A DNA stretch of 38,174 bases from Oscillospiraceae bacterium (GCA_009782435.1 WRJA01000014.1:1-38174); one strand, 5' to 3'; counted from the first letter of the stretch, positions 2,459-10,220 are shown. Translations and numbers: made by a program. The notes: generated by a model from the sequence alone, not told the origin.

Positions 2459-3568
2459 ATGAAAAGACCGATATGCTTTATTCTTGTGATTGTTTTGACC
2501 CTGACATTTTTATCCGCATGCGCAGGCGGCGGCAATAACGTTGCTTCGACACCTCCTCCGGCGCAAAACACAACGCAACCGGCAACGCCTCCGCCTCCCC
2601 CGGAGCAAGCGGAAGGATGGGATTTTTCCGACGCGACTAATGTTAACCTCGCCTTCGCGATATATATACCTGAAAACGACGCCACCACACAAGATCTGTG
2701 CAGATATTTGGACCTTGTCAAGGAATATACCGAAGGAACGGTCGATTATACCCTCTACGCCGCTCAAACACTGTGTAACGGAAACGAGGAACTTGACGCT
2801 GTTAAGAACGGTTTGGCTGACATTACATTTTTTTATGTGGCTATGGGGTCCGGCGCTCTGCCCATCGGTTATATCCTTGAATACCCCGCGATCCCCTATA
2901 ACAACGACAAGTCCGCCTCATATACATTCACCGATTGGTTCAATCAGCTGAAGCCGGCGGAGCTGGATGATTTTAAATTTCTTTTTTCCATAGGTCAAGG
3001 CAACGGCGGGTATATAACGACCTCTCCCATCAGGACATTCGAAGATTTTTCCGGTAAACAGATTCGCTGCGGTGCTGCTCAGGCGCTTACCATGACGGCA
3101 TACGGCGCAATTCCGGTCGTTTTGGTGATAGCCGAGGTTTATGAAGCCTTGAGGACCGGTGTTATTGACGCTTCTTCCGGTATGCTTCACGGCGCAAGAG
3201 CGTTTAATCTGTATGAGGTCACTCAATACGCCACTCCCGATCCGTTCTATATCAGCTCATATCTGGTAGTAATGAACAAAGATGTTTGGAATTCTCTTAC
3301 TTTCGACCAGCAAGACGCTATGGAAAAGGCTACCGATTACGCTTTCGATCTGTATCTTGCGCCGGCAAGATATGATGACGGCATAGCAGCCGTAAAGGTT
3401 TTCGAAGAAAACGGGCTTGAAATCATTCGGCTTGACGATAAGGCTCTGTCAACGATGAAGGATATCAATGAAACCGTGTTGGGAGAATACGCATCGACCG
3501 TACCCGGAGGTCCCGAAGCAGTAGCTCTTTTGAAAGAACTTGCTGCGAAATACAACGGAATATTCTGA
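2459..3568 (+). CDS. TRAP-type solute-binding lipoprotein (DctP family)
   Basis: A 369-residue extracytoplasmic binding protein. The N-terminus is a lipoprotein signal with lipobox LSAC (Cys21), then a Pro/Gln/Thr-rich linker (to about residue 50), then a DctP-like fold. Recognisable parts are LGLADITFFYVAM-like (here NGLADITFFYVAM), the ligand-binding stretch FSGKQIRCGAAQALTMTAYG (about 200-220) and EVYEALRTGVIDASSGM. In TRAP transporters it hands an organic acid or related solute to DctQ and DctM in the membrane. Neither subunit is encoded nearby, so it is an orphan receptor here. An AGGAGAG site precedes the ATG, and a strong hairpin ends the gene. The substrate cannot be told. Confidence 0.8.
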   Translation: MKRPICFILVIVLTLTFLSACAGGGNNVASTPPPAQNTTQPATPPPPPEQAEGWDFSDATNVNLAFAIYIPENDATTQDLCRYLDLVKEYTEGTVDYTLYAAQTLCNGNEELDAVKNGLADITFFYVAMGSGALPIGYILEYPAIPYNNDKSASYTFTDWFNQLKPAELDDFKFLFSIGQGNGGYITTSPIRTFEDFSGKQIRCGAAQALTMTAYGAIPVVLVIAEVYEALRTGVIDASSGMLHGARAFNLYEVTQYATPDPFYISSYLVVMNKDVWNSLTFDQQDAMEKATDYAFDLYLAPARYDDGIAAVKVFEENGLEIIRLDDKALSTMKDINETVLGEYASTVPGGPEAVALLKELAAKYNGIF

Positions 3569-3572
3569 CCGG

Positions 3573-3610
3573 ACACAAATCCCCGCGGCATACGCCGCGG
3601 GGATTTGTGT
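3573..3610 (+). terminator. Long perfect hairpin after the TRAP binding protein gene
   Basis: Arms 3573-3589 and 3594-3610 are perfectly complementary (17 bp, GC-rich centre) with a 4-base loop. Only a short T tract follows, so it may be a terminator, an mRNA 3'-stabilising structure, or both. It lies between the binding-protein gene and the DUF169 gene. Confidence 0.65.
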
Positions 3611-3675
3611 TTGAGAACGTTGACCTGCGTTATGCCGCTGCATTTATGCTTTTATGGTTACACAAGGAGTTTATT

Positions 3676-4443
3676 ATGAATCAAAAAGCCGCAGACTTGT
3701 TTAAAAAATTAGCGCTCCCCTATCCGGCGGTTGCAATTAAATACTGCTACAGCCGGCCGGAAAATATCGATCATACGGATGAAATACTTTCCTTCTGCCA
3801 GTTTATAAAAAAAGCCCAGGATTCCGGAAAATGCTTCTATACGACAAAAGAAGATGACAACTGTTTCGGCAAAATGGTATTGGGTATGATCCCCAAACCG
3901 CCATTCGAAGCTTCGGGGCAAGCCGGCTGTGATTTTGGTGTCTTTAAAACTCAGGCTCCGAACGCGCGTCTTTATAATCTGATCCCCTCCCTTATCCCGG
4001 GAGCTTGCAATTATGTGGTTTTTTGCCCGACAGATATTTGTGATTTTGAACCGGACCTCATTATTTGCGTCGCTCAGCCGGCTCAAGCTGATATAATCAT
4101 GAGGGCAACCAGTTATATCTCCGGGGATCTGTGGGAGTCGAAAAGCTCACACGTTTTGAGCTGTGCATGGACTTATGTATATCCCTATTTAAGCGGAAAA
4201 GTGAATTTCTGCATCACCGGCTTACACCACGGCATGAAACGACGGAAAATATACCCTGCCGGCTTGCATATAATTGCTGTCCCGTTTGAAAAGATACACG
4301 AAGTAATCACGGCTCTTGATGAAATGGACTGGGAACTGATCGCAATGAAAGAAGACGAAGAAAGCAAGGCGTTACTGAAGGAAAAAATGGAAAATTGGAA
4401 AAAAATGAGCCGGGCGGAAGGCGGAAATGATACCGTCTTTTAA
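3676..4443 (+). CDS. DUF169-family protein
   Basis: A 255-residue protein with the features of the DUF169 family: an N-terminal PYPAVAIKYC segment, a CQFIKKA cysteine region, YNLIPSLIPGACNYVVFCP, and IICVAQPAQADIIMRA (about residues 150-165). It is Cys-rich and probably cytoplasmic; the family has no agreed activity. The ATG at 3676 has an AAGGAG site at ideal distance. The frame runs upstream to 3607, but that part lies in the hairpin and has no start with a ribosome site. Its position after an orphan TRAP receptor is suggestive, but the hairpin between them argues against strong co-transcription. Confidence 0.75.
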   Translation: MNQKAADLFKKLALPYPAVAIKYCYSRPENIDHTDEILSFCQFIKKAQDSGKCFYTTKEDDNCFGKMVLGMIPKPPFEASGQAGCDFGVFKTQAPNARLYNLIPSLIPGACNYVVFCPTDICDFEPDLIICVAQPAQADIIMRATSYISGDLWESKSSHVLSCAWTYVYPYLSGKVNFCITGLHHGMKRRKIYPAGLHIIAVPFEKIHEVITALDEMDWELIAMKEDEESKALLKEKMENWKKMSRAEGGNDTVF

Positions 4444-6155: not shown

Positions 6156-6203
6156 ACGATTTCCCGCGCAAAGCGTTCCGCCTGTTCCGGTAAGAAAATT
6201 CGA

Positions 6204-6246
6204 TTAAATCATTCTCCCCCGCCGAAAGCGGGGGAGAATGATTTAA
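6204..6246. terminator. Bidirectional terminator, 19-bp perfect hairpin
   Basis: Arms 6204-6222 and 6228-6246 are perfectly complementary with loop CGAAA. The outer part is A/T-rich, so each direction has a T-containing 3' flank. It lies between convergent genes (5613-6155 plus, 6292-8727 minus), as expected for a shared terminator. Confidence 0.8.
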
Positions 6247-6291
6247 TATGTATTATGCTGCGGAGCGGCTGTTTGGTACAAAACGCCGGAT

Positions 6292-8727
6292 TTAAAACGC
6301 GTGCTCCGTGCGGGAGATTATCTCCTCTTGAACTTGGGGATTCAATTCTACCCACAAAGCGCTGTAACCCGCGACCCGAACGACCAAATTTCTGTGTTTT
6401 TGAGGGTCTTTCTGCGCGGCTATAAGCATATCGCGGTCAACCACGTTGAACTGTATGTGTTTTCCCAAATACTCTCCGAAATACGTATCGATCAGATCCA
6501 AGAACCTCTCCAAGTCTTCATCCGTCTGCATTGCCGACGGGTGGAACTTAACATTAAACAGGCAGCCGTGTATGGGCGTGTGATCGATTTTTCCCGCGGA
6601 ATTTATCAGGGCGGTCGGTCCGTTCAAATCCATGCCCTGACAGGCCGAGCAGCCGGCGTCATTTAAGGAGAGCCATGATTTTCTTCCGCTCGGCAGCGCG
6701 CCTACCTTTGCCCCCGAAGCTCCGTGGAAGCTCAAACTGTGGGGCGCGACTTCATATTTTGATCCGTAGGGCGAATCTAATTTATGGACATAATTGAACA
6801 GTCTTTTATACAGATCAACTACTATTTCATCAGCATAATCGTCGTCATTGCCGAATTTCGGCGCCGCCAACAGCTTTTTGCGCACATTCTCATAACCTTC
6901 AAAATCTGACGCCAACGCCTTAATAAGCTCATCTTTTCCGACGGATTTGTCGTCAAACACGCATTTTTTTATCGCGGCCAGCGAATCGCCCACATCCGGA
7001 AGACCGATGGGCTGCAAATAGTGAGCGGAAATCTGATAGCGGCATCCTCCTCCGAACACTCCGTCTCCCCGCTTTATGCAGTCGTCAAAAAGACTTGAGA
7101 GGAACAAATTCGGCATCTCATGGCTTCTGAATATGCGAACCCGGTTGCTGAATTCCCTTTGTATCTCAAAAAAGTACTCCGTCTGCTTCATTAAGGCGTC
7201 GACCAGATCGTCATAACTCATATCTGTCAGTTCGCCGGTTTTCGGCCCGATCTGTTTGTTCAAGCGAGGATCTCGCCCGTTGTTCAGAGTGACCTCCAAT
7301 ACTTTCGCAAAATTGAATATTCCGGGCCAAGCGGAAGGCGTCTTTGCCGGTATTCCGTGTAAAACGCAGCCGCCGATTGTATAATTCACGGCATCCTCGT
7401 GAGTGACTCCTCGTTCTTCGAAATACGGGATCGAACTCAGATCGTTGTACCAAGCCGGATAACCCAGGCCAAGCTTGTTCAGTTTCGCGGCAGCCATCTT
7501 AAACTCATGATTTATCCCGGGATGCCAGCGTATCGTAAGCGTCGGGTGGGCTGTTCGCACGTTCATGGCCGCTTCCACCCACAAAAAGCTCATTTCGTTG
7601 ACAGCGTCTTTCCCGTCAATTGTCTGGCCTCCCAGCGTTGTGTTGTGATACTGTGTCTCGCCGGAGCGGCAGTCGTTGATTTGCGTGTCCGCAAGCGGAT
7701 CATAAGTAGCGGTCTTGCTGTCGAATTGCCTCATGGACGAGCACTTGCAGCGCACGCATTCCAGCAGCTCCACAGCCAATTCTCTCGTTATCTTGCCTTC
7801 ATCCAAATCCTTTTTATAATACGGATAAAGATACTGATCCACCCGCCCGAAAGAGATCCCGGAACAGCGGGCGTCATAGAAAACGCAGATGTGACAGAAC
7901 ATCATGGTCTGAATCGCGTCATAAAAATCTCTGGCGGGATTTTCCATGATCCAATTCATCACTTCCGAAATCTTCTCAAGTTCCTTACGCCGTTTCGAAT
8001 CGGTCTCTTTTTTCGCCATCTCAGCCGCTAACACGGAGTAACGCTTGGCGAAACGTATTGATGCTTTTAAAGCGGTTTTCATCGCTCTCAGCAGATTGTG
8101 CTTTTCATAGGATGGATTGTCCAATAATCTCAGCGCTTCCAGTTCATCGTCTATTTCTTTTATGATACCCGTTATCCCTATTTTGATTACTTTTTCATAG
8201 TTCGGGACATGCCAGCCCTTTTCCAAGGAAGCCTCAGTCTCCGCGAAGAAAACCAAAGACCCTTTTTCGTTCATCGTGCACAGTTCCTTGTAAAACTCAG
8301 GTTCGAGCCAGTCCAAAAAGGACTGTTTCGCTTCCCTGTCCTTCCAGTAGTTCACAATGTCTCGGATATCGCCGTGCATATCCTCGCTTACGCGATAGGT
8401 CAGCCAGTTGTTGTCAAGAGCCTCTCCCACCCAGCGGCAATAGAGTTCGGGCCACCACTCAAAGCCCATGGGCTTCGCGGCGAAGTCTCCGCACAGCAAT
8501 TGCTCGTCGTCAATGTATATCGGCAGATTGTCCACAATATTCTCATAGGCGCGTGCGCGTCTGAATATCTTGGGCTGCCCTTCTGTTTCTCTGTATGCCG
8601 CGGTCACCAATTTTGCCCGGCTCAGAGAGAGGCCCGATTCATCACGGGCGTCGCGAAGAAAGTTCCAAATCCGTTGGCCCCGGGTTTGAGCGGCTTTTTC
8701 TGTCGGTACATTCAGTTGGTCTAACAT
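6292..8727 (-). CDS. Glycyl radical enzyme of unassigned reaction (PFL-like superfamily)
   Basis: An 811-residue protein with both ends of the glycyl radical enzyme fold. The C-terminal radical loop is RVAGYSA, with Gly787 the expected radical site. The central cysteine loop reads GGCVLHG, with Cys454 the likely thiyl residue. The dehydratase, decarboxylase and lyase members I know carry Glu two residues after the Cys (C-x-E); here the sequence is C-V-L-H, so the substrate cannot be copied from those families. PFL itself has Cys-Cys and is also excluded. The start at 8727 follows a perfect AAGGAGG. An AraC/PocR regulator gene lies just upstream, and no radical-SAM activating enzyme is in the window. 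The enzyme would be cytoplasmic and oxygen-sensitive. Best guess: carbon-source catabolism (C-C or C-X bond cleavage). Confidence 0.9.
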   Translation of the reverse strand: MLDQLNVPTEKAAQTRGQRIWNFLRDARDESGLSLSRAKLVTAAYRETEGQPKIFRRARAYENIVDNLPIYIDDEQLLCGDFAAKPMGFEWWPELYCRWVGEALDNNWLTYRVSEDMHGDIRDIVNYWKDREAKQSFLDWLEPEFYKELCTMNEKGSLVFFAETEASLEKGWHVPNYEKVIKIGITGIIKEIDDELEALRLLDNPSYEKHNLLRAMKTALKASIRFAKRYSVLAAEMAKKETDSKRRKELEKISEVMNWIMENPARDFYDAIQTMMFCHICVFYDARCSGISFGRVDQYLYPYYKKDLDEGKITRELAVELLECVRCKCSSMRQFDSKTATYDPLADTQINDCRSGETQYHNTTLGGQTIDGKDAVNEMSFLWVEAAMNVRTAHPTLTIRWHPGINHEFKMAAAKLNKLGLGYPAWYNDLSSIPYFEERGVTHEDAVNYTIGGCVLHGIPAKTPSAWPGIFNFAKVLEVTLNNGRDPRLNKQIGPKTGELTDMSYDDLVDALMKQTEYFFEIQREFSNRVRIFRSHEMPNLFLSSLFDDCIKRGDGVFGGGCRYQISAHYLQPIGLPDVGDSLAAIKKCVFDDKSVGKDELIKALASDFEGYENVRKKLLAAPKFGNDDDYADEIVVDLYKRLFNYVHKLDSPYGSKYEVAPHSLSFHGASGAKVGALPSGRKSWLSLNDAGCSACQGMDLNGPTALINSAGKIDHTPIHGCLFNVKFHPSAMQTDEDLERFLDLIDTYFGEYLGKHIQFNVVDRDMLIAAQKDPQKHRNLVVRVAGYSALWVELNPQVQEEIISRTEHAF

Positions 8728-8807
8728 TTTTTTCCTCCTTAAATTGAATAATAAGAACAAAACACTCAGGCGCTGCCGCGACGGTCGCAAAACCTGTCAA
8801 CAATGAT

Positions 8808-10121
8808 TTATTCCGTTCCCTGAATATTTTTCTGCGAACTGTATAAATTCCTGATTTGAGAACACGTAACTCCGAAATGGGATTTGAACATCTTATAAAA
8901 GCTTCTTATCTCAACATAACCAACCTTTTTCGCAACCTCCTGTATGGGTATTTGCGTCTGTTTCAAATAATTATACGCATAATCCATCCTGACTTCATTG
9001 AGATACCACTTCATGTTCACTCCCATGTATTTCTTAAACAGTCTGCTGGCGTATGAGGTCGAAAGATGCAAACTGCGTGCAAGTTTTTCAAGGGTTATGG
9101 GTTTATCATAGTTATTTTCGATATATTCCACCATGCGCTTTACGATGGGACTTCTGATATCAAATTCACCGTAGCTTGTAATCACCACCTCCAAGAATTC
9201 ATCCAAAATCTCAACTATTTCCTCTGTGGCGCTTGCGGCTGTAATACGCTCGGGTATCGAAACGGAAATCTCAAAAATGCTCCTGAAATCGGGGGCCCAT
9301 TTCATGAGATAGGTGATAAGTCTGAAAAACGTCGTCAGCGTATTGAACCGCACCAAATATATTTCCTCATCCCGCAACGCCGGACGAAACAACCGGTGAT
9401 ACTGCTCTTTCGCCTGTATCATCCGTCCCGAATGAAGGTATGAGTAAAATCGGTGGGTCAGCTGCACTGCGGCCGATTCAACGAGCTTATACGGGTTGTC
9501 GCCCTTTTCGCCTTCAAGTATGATATTCATATAAGACAACGGATACTCCGGCGGCTCCTCTTCCTCGGCCGGGTCCTCTTCAAAGCCCGGTACTTTCCCG
9601 ATGTTGACACTCGGAAGAAAACCGGAATTAATATTTATTCTGATCAGAGAGTGCAATAAAAGCATGCTCGGTCGCATCCTGTGGCGCTCCAAAGCCGGGA
9701 TCCCTTTAAGATACCGCTCAAGCTCATCGCCCGAAATACCGAACTGTTCCCTGTAGTAATCCTTTTGCTCAAGCATATTCTGAGCGTACTCTATTGCGGG
9801 GACCGTATAAGCGACAAATATCCCCAAAAGCTTTTTCCGGCTGTAGCACGGCACGACAAATTCACCTATACCGCCGTGACATTCGGAAAAGACCGGCTCA
9901 CGTGTCTGCATTGCGCCGGACATGAGTTTGATCCGTTTTTTTTCACAGAGCTTGCAAGCGTCGGGGTTCGCCGCTATTCTCCTGCACAGCCAATTGCTCT
10001 CATCGATTTCCAAACGTAAATGTGTTTTTTCGGAATAGGGATAAAATGAGCAGTTCAGCTGTGTCAAACGTTTGAATTCCGAAAGGATTTTTTCTATGGT
10101 GCTCTCGATTTCCCTGTCCAT
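8808..10121 (-). CDS. AraC-family regulator with PocR sensory domain
   Basis: A 437-residue transcription factor. Residues about 10-165 form a PocR-type ligand domain with its cysteine cluster (SNWLCRRI, PDACKLCEKKR, FSECHGGIGEFVVPCYS). A middle linker contains an acidic EEDPAEEEEPPEYP segment. The last 100 residues are a double helix-turn-helix: ITLEKLARSLHLSTSYASRL and IQEVAKKVGYVEIRSFYKMF. PocR domains sense small molecules such as diols and often sit beside glycyl radical enzyme loci. The gene is co-directional with the glycyl radical enzyme, 80 bp upstream of it, so it probably activates that enzyme in response to its substrate. The ATG at 10121 has a GGAG site five bases upstream. Confidence 0.9.
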   Translation of the reverse strand: MDREIESTIEKILSEFKRLTQLNCSFYPYSEKTHLRLEIDESNWLCRRIAANPDACKLCEKKRIKLMSGAMQTREPVFSECHGGIGEFVVPCYSRKKLLGIFVAYTVPAIEYAQNMLEQKDYYREQFGISGDELERYLKGIPALERHRMRPSMLLLHSLIRININSGFLPSVNIGKVPGFEEDPAEEEEPPEYPLSYMNIILEGEKGDNPYKLVESAAVQLTHRFYSYLHSGRMIQAKEQYHRLFRPALRDEEIYLVRFNTLTTFFRLITYLMKWAPDFRSIFEISVSIPERITAASATEEIVEILDEFLEVVITSYGEFDIRSPIVKRMVEYIENNYDKPITLEKLARSLHLSTSYASRLFKKYMGVNMKWYLNEVRMDYAYNYLKQTQIPIQEVAKKVGYVEIRSFYKMFKSHFGVTCSQIRNLYSSQKNIQGTE

Positions 10122-10220
10122 CCGTTTCTCCGATTCAGCGCCGAATCAAAAGCAGATTCCGGCAGTTTCCGGTTTTCTTTTCCGGAAACCCCTCCCGGTT
10201 TTCATATCCGGCTTACCGGG

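Follow-up and report, generated by a model that had tools for sequence, protein, structure and literature searches.

The gene GRE1 of an Oscillospiraceae bacterium encodes a complete, oxygen-sensitive glycyl radical enzyme, which carries the catalytic residues of the family, belongs to the clade of arylacetate decarboxylase (AAD)-like (Cys-Val-Leu/Ile-His) enzymes, has the pocket signature of AAD, and shares its genome with an activase. The enzyme is presumably active, and its most likely function would be the radical decarboxylation of a phenolic acid of the aryl-acetate type, following activation in trans, in an anaerobe specialized in phenolics. This reading, in which the reaction and the substrate class are deduced from relatives, is held with about even confidence. 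The window, i.e., the whole stretch of DNA analyzed (38,174 nucleotides), is the entire contig C14 of an assembly of 2.15 Mb, composed of 127 contigs and 91% complete.

The likely start of GRE1 is the ATG at position 8727, which has an AGGAGG in front of it; the TTG at 8790, chosen by the mechanical call, makes the protein too long. Both hallmarks of glycyl radical enzymes, the RVxGYS loop and a catalytic cysteine in the middle of the protein, are present, and the Pfam scores of the PFL-like domain (PF02901, 608 bits) and the Gly_radical domain (PF01228, 102 bits) lie far over the cut-off. With the 811-residue start, the residues named in the first-pass annotation are exact: Cys454 within GGCVLHG, His457, and Gly787 within RVAGYSA. 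The inverted repeat downstream of the gene (Table 1) is probably a two-way terminator. Terminator-like matches over the whole region do not rise above shuffled sequences, and this stem stands out from them by its length and perfection. Elsewhere in the window (2459-4443), a gene for a DctP-type solute-binding protein is followed by a DUF169 gene, and adjoining TRAP membrane subunits are not recognized. This lone DctP protein is only 20-23% identical to the TRAP proteins at other glycyl radical enzyme loci and is not regarded as their kin.

Table 1. Positions of the features in the window and contigs of the expanded molybdoenzyme group in the genome
Feature	Position or contig	Strand	Remarks
GRE1, glycyl radical enzyme, 811 aa, AAD-like clade; Cys454, His457, Gly787	6292..8727	-	Intact ORF; AGGAGG ribosome-binding site at 8739-8734
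Inverted repeat, 20 pairs, between convergent genes downstream of GRE1	6203..6247	.	Stem exceptionally long and perfect
Regulator, 437 aa, PocR sensory domain and AraC-type HTH	8808..10121	-	Pfam; upstream of GRE1, same strand, 80-bp gap
Two direct repeats, 17 nt (CCGGTTTTCTTTTCCGG / CCGGTTTTCATATCCGG), upstream of the regulator	10169..10211	.	
14 pyrogallol-hydroxytransferase-like enzymes	C27 (x2), C71 (x2), C36, C2, C37, C44, C46, C7, C17, C10, C6, C93		

The best sequence match of GRE1 in the PDB is AAD of Olsenella (now Tractidigestivibacter) scatoligenes (7e7l; Lu et al. 2021, as cited in PMC9248008 and PMC13285125), with 658 bits, and the second is glycerol dehydratase, with 504 bits. 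In a maximum-likelihood tree of 25 sequences, from which the hydroxyphenylacetate, indoleacetate and phenylacetate decarboxylases (HPAD, IAD and PAD) and benzylsuccinate synthase (BssA) were left out, a single clade on a long branch (100/100) comprises GRE1, GRE2 and GRE3 from contig C27 of the same genome, a relative from a Family XIII genome (L016/L039), the enzymes of loci L021 and L015, and four AAD-type sequences. Within it, one subclade (100/100) unites GRE1 with GRE2 and the Family XIII enzyme, and AAD and its 64-71%-identical relatives make up another. The enzymes left out of the tree are far weaker matches of GRE1 where a model or structure exists; the curated NCBIfam models give 494 against 1100 bits for IAD and 390 against 1150 bits for HPAD, both well under the cut-off. 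GRE1 shares 69% identity with GRE2, 70-73% with the halves of the Family XIII enzyme, and 40% with AAD, which places it below the level of AAD proper, where near relatives share about 60% or more. Surveys of the order, class, phylum and relatives revealed no orthologue beyond GRE2 and the Family XIII genome, where the three large surveys applied strict E-values and scored only two candidates in each genome. Judged by sequence, the GRE1 branch is a rare and deep sister branch of AAD, so far uncharacterized.

Standing alone with its regulator, with no activase or transporter genes adjoining it, GRE1 could be taken for a surplus copy of GRE2 that has lost its function or is decaying. This is barely credible for a full-length open frame with a ribosome-binding site, both the catalytic cysteine and glycine, and an unchanged glycyl loop. 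Moreover, GRE1 is not a recent duplicate, because its grouping with the Family XIII enzyme (88/88) is no looser than that with GRE2.

The active-site loop of GRE1 had been claimed as new, which does not hold, as the characterized AAD (7e7l) has the loop IGGCVLHQVPGK (IGGCVLHQ), compared with GGCVLHG in GRE1. The search for such a loop elsewhere found CVLH, besides AAD, in the AAD-type enzymes of L017 and L020, in GRE2 and in L021; the related forms are CVIH in GRE3 and CTLH in L018, and L015, an outlier of the clade, has CVLA. AAD decarboxylates hydroxyphenylacetate even though it lacks the auxiliary subunit and key active-site residues of HPAD, and the mutagenesis text of the same paper implies a glutamine at the position of the C-x-E glutamate in phenylacetate decarboxylase (PMC9248008). 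Hence, the C-x-E loop is not universal among the known glycyl radical decarboxylases. IAD, HPAD and PAD are likewise glycyl radical enzymes, and their chemistry, the decarboxylation of arylacetates, is the likely chemistry of GRE1; however, GRE1 differs from them by the absence of C-x-E (Leu456 at the glutamate position), by scores under the cut-off, and by the lack of an adjoining gene for an HPAD-type small subunit. Two further glycyl radical enzymes, L035:784-3303 (G799; loop SGCVQSH) and L038:835-3309 (G801), have IAD as their nearest curated model, with a sub-cut-off score of 463 bits for L035, and are possibly phenylacetate-decarboxylase-like enzymes.

The pocket can be compared through five substrate-binding and base positions of glycerol dehydratase: His164, His281, Glu435, Asp447 and Tyr640. 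Four of these correspond in GRE1 to Trp172 (H164), Leu456 (E435), Trp467 (D447) and His663 (Y640), residues which are the same in AAD and unlike those of glycerol dehydratase. The AlphaFold model of GRE1 has the expected fold (pLDDT 83.5, pTM 0.86), and Foldseek gives near equal E-values for diol dehydratases and AAD; AAD ranks first among the top matches by identity (38-39%), and its rmsd (2.5) is the smallest of them. The overall fold resembles glycerol dehydratase (1r8w) and propanediol dehydratase with a TM-score of about 0.9, but identity to 1r8w is 37%, and the residues for substrate and base are replaced. This general fold, along with the PocR domain of the regulator (PocR is familiar from the regulation of propanediol use), might point to an enzyme of the diol-dehydratase type acting on a non-aromatic polyol, but that is very improbable in view of the substitution of His164, Glu435, Asp447 and Tyr640 by Trp, Leu, Trp and His; microcompartment and diol genes are also absent among the annotated genes of the window. 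Decarboxylation is the favored reaction because AAD is the best PDB match and leads in Foldseek identity and rmsd, and because GRE1 shares with it the CVLH loop, the 100/100 clade and the pocket positions.

The fifth position separates GRE1 from AAD. The residue at H281 is Ser289 in GRE1 and serine in GRE2, GRE3, L016 and L021, whereas it is tyrosine in all four AAD-type sequences (AAD, L017, L018 and L020). In addition, GRE1, GRE2 and L016 contain an insertion of about 10 residues before position 360, where the AlphaFold confidence is low. Thus, GRE1 has the IGGCVLH-type loop without C-x-E, the Trp/Leu/Trp/His pocket and the clade in common with AAD, and differs from it by its separate branch, the serine, the insertion and the low identity. 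The loop and the mostly equal pocket positions would also fit a distant orthologue of AAD with the same substrates (p-hydroxyphenylacetate and similar), but such an orthologue is unlikely, given that AAD-type sequences reach 64-71% identity to AAD, that all four keep the tyrosine, and that a genome with as many as three enzymes of this clade probably uses them on different substrates.

The statement that no activase lies within 38 kb of GRE1 is borne out, with none among the annotated genes of contig C14 and all TIGR02494 matches of the genome on other contigs. Since the window is the whole contig, this means that there is none on this contig; at the AAD-type loci L018 and L020, by contrast, the activase adjoins the enzyme gene. 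Two activases of the genome score over the family cut-off, on C27 and C60. The first of them (C27, 6569-7435) directly follows GRE2, the 69%-identical paralogue whose 19-residue glycyl loop is identical to that of GRE1. The search for an activase elsewhere in the genome was thus successful, and its absence is neither a trait of the GRE1 system nor a reason to regard GRE1 as an orphan. Tetranucleotide use agrees between C27 and the window (0.95) as well as between the two halves of the window (0.94), compared with at most 0.74 for other organisms. Activation of GRE1 in trans by the C27 activase would be the simplest reading of this arrangement.

The C60 activase belongs with a distant, fourth glycyl radical enzyme (L014:789-5744), 31% identical to GRE1, which has the loop SGCLGYH, likewise without C-x-E, and adjoins its own activase and a MmgE/PrpD protein. 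It has no close relative among the solved structures (364 bits at best), and may be more promising than GRE1 as an enzyme with a new substrate.

The PocR/AraC regulator proposed by the first-pass annotation is confirmed, as Pfam finds both domains in the gene upstream of GRE1, with scores of 58 bits for PocR (cut-off 23.9) and 69 bits for the AraC-type HTH. It would be expected to sense the substrate of GRE1 or a related compound. The direct repeats upstream of the regulator are a possible operator, and they may also have arisen by chance. In the other glycyl radical enzyme loci, the regulator has only AraC-domain matches, of about 31% identity.

The gene neighborhoods of the relatives point to the metabolism of phenolics. 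An example is contig C27, where 18 genes in one direction cover about 25 kb (L013:2847-11705 and L012:189-14949) and include two enzymes of the AAD clade with one activase. The cluster contains GRE3, directly adjoined by pyrogallol-hydroxytransferase-like subunits (alpha, beta, alpha), a TRAP transporter, a lactonase, an aldo-keto reductase, MmgE/PrpD, GRE2 and the activase, and further a second TRAP transporter, an aconitase/LeuCD-like pair and another aldo-keto reductase. The cluster looks devoted to plant phenolics, and GRE1 itself lies outside of it. In the Family XIII genome, the glycyl radical enzyme gene and a pyrogallol-hydroxytransferase-like gene (561 bits to 4v4c) point away from each other, an apparent LysR gene lies between them, and the other half of the enzyme lies on a second contig, followed by an activase. 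The pyrogallol-phloroglucinol hydroxytransferase 4v4c is matched nearly full length by the C27 alpha and beta subunits (460 and 164 bits); its Tyr404 is kept in the L016 copy and is another residue in the aligned C27 copy. These matches adjoin relatives of GRE1 on C27 and L016, but not GRE1 in the window. Locus L021 combines the enzyme, activase and TRAP genes. Locus L015 (L015:2646-16355), that of the CVLA variant, has activase, TRAP, CitMHS, CoA transferase, BKACE, SDR, 3HCDH and M24 genes, without a Cyclase-family gene, and looks like a different pathway. The TRAP transporters beside GRE2, GRE3, L021 and L015 fit the import of organic acids.

The genome as a whole agrees with this setting. 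It encodes 14 pyrogallol-hydroxytransferase-like large subunits by protein search (two of which appear as two matching pieces), and Pfam PF21423 likewise counts 14, compared with a maximum of 5 among 98 sampled relatives, 78 of which have none. The expansion of these molybdoenzymes, together with several TRAP transporters, suggests an anaerobe living on phenolics, a setting in keeping with a phenolic acid as the substrate of an AAD-like enzyme. Flavonols (quercetin, myricetin) give rise to di- and trihydroxyphenylacetates in anaerobes, and these would be candidate substrates. The phenolic setting of GRE1 is proposed because GRE3 and the Family XIII enzyme adjoin pyrogallol-hydroxytransferase-like genes and the genome holds 14 such enzymes. 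One of them, a 1033-residue protein on C10 (L052:6951-10873, L087), is extended far beyond the usual N terminus and has an Fe-S partner, and its neighbors are apparent butyryl-CoA-pathway, electron-transfer-flavoprotein and Hdr-like genes and a Cyclase-family gene. The genome contains four Cyclase-family proteins and one BKACE protein, the latter encoded on C38 with a TRAP transporter and apparent methylmalonyl-CoA mutase genes. A cluster like that for phloroglucinol degradation in Clostridium scatologenes (PMC10470551) is not found beside any of the glycyl radical enzyme genes.

The same neighborhoods bear on a different reaction for an enzyme of AAD-type architecture, namely that of a radical lyase which would cleave C-C or C-O bonds in rings or side chains derived from polyphenols and would share a route of phenolic catabolism with the pyrogallol-hydroxytransferase-like enzymes. 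The separate deep branch, the changed pocket position, the proximity of the relatives to these enzymes, and the aconitase-like, MmgE/PrpD, lactonase and aldo-keto reductase genes of C27 speak for a lyase. Nevertheless, it is a rather doubtful possibility, as the pocket signature is common with AAD, a decarboxylase, the reaction has no precedent among the known glycyl radical enzymes, and GRE1 itself is not part of the C27 cluster.

The preferred decarboxylase reading involves the following steps. The radical-SAM activase of C27, together with SAM, would set the radical on Gly787 of GRE1 in trans, from where it would move to Cys454, as established for the family. By analogy with AAD, IAD and PAD, the Cys454 thiyl radical would oxidize the bound acid at the side-chain CH2 or the carboxylate, after which CO2 would leave and Cys454 would give the hydrogen back. 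His457 and His663 could serve to orient the phenol or carboxylate or to take a proton from it. The initiation step of radical decarboxylation is itself debated (PMC9248008). Several features count against this reading: 40% identity is under the usual guarantee of the same substrate, Ser289 and the insertion depart from AAD, and the aconitase/LeuCD-like, MmgE/PrpD and lactonase genes of C27 would be superfluous for a simple decarboxylase.

The idea of a new substrate survives in a weaker form. The clade and the loop are known from AAD, so GRE1 is no categorical novelty, and its missing activase is explained; what stands is the distance from AAD, the fully supported branch of its own, Ser289, and the pyrogallol-hydroxytransferase-like neighbors of its relatives. 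Likewise, placement inside a characterized cluster with a C-V-L-H loop holds by half, since the loop is common to AAD but GRE1 lies on a separate deep branch. A tentative possibility, held at well under even confidence, is that GRE1, GRE2 and the Family XIII relative form a distinct subfamily for a phenolic substrate beyond the known arylacetates, acting with pyrogallol-hydroxytransferase-like enzymes in an undescribed anaerobic polyphenol pathway, and that one activase would serve three such glycyl radical enzymes in the genome of GRE1.

The unusual loop and the absence of a neighboring activase are both explicable from beyond one contig. Glycyl radical decarboxylases and lyases open up otherwise difficult reactions in the anoxic gut, and some of the products, p-cresol and skatole among them, are of consequence for the host. 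If a sister branch of AAD is associated with pyrogallol-hydroxytransferase-like enzymes, it would connect the chemistry of glycyl radicals with the anaerobic breakdown of plant phenolics.
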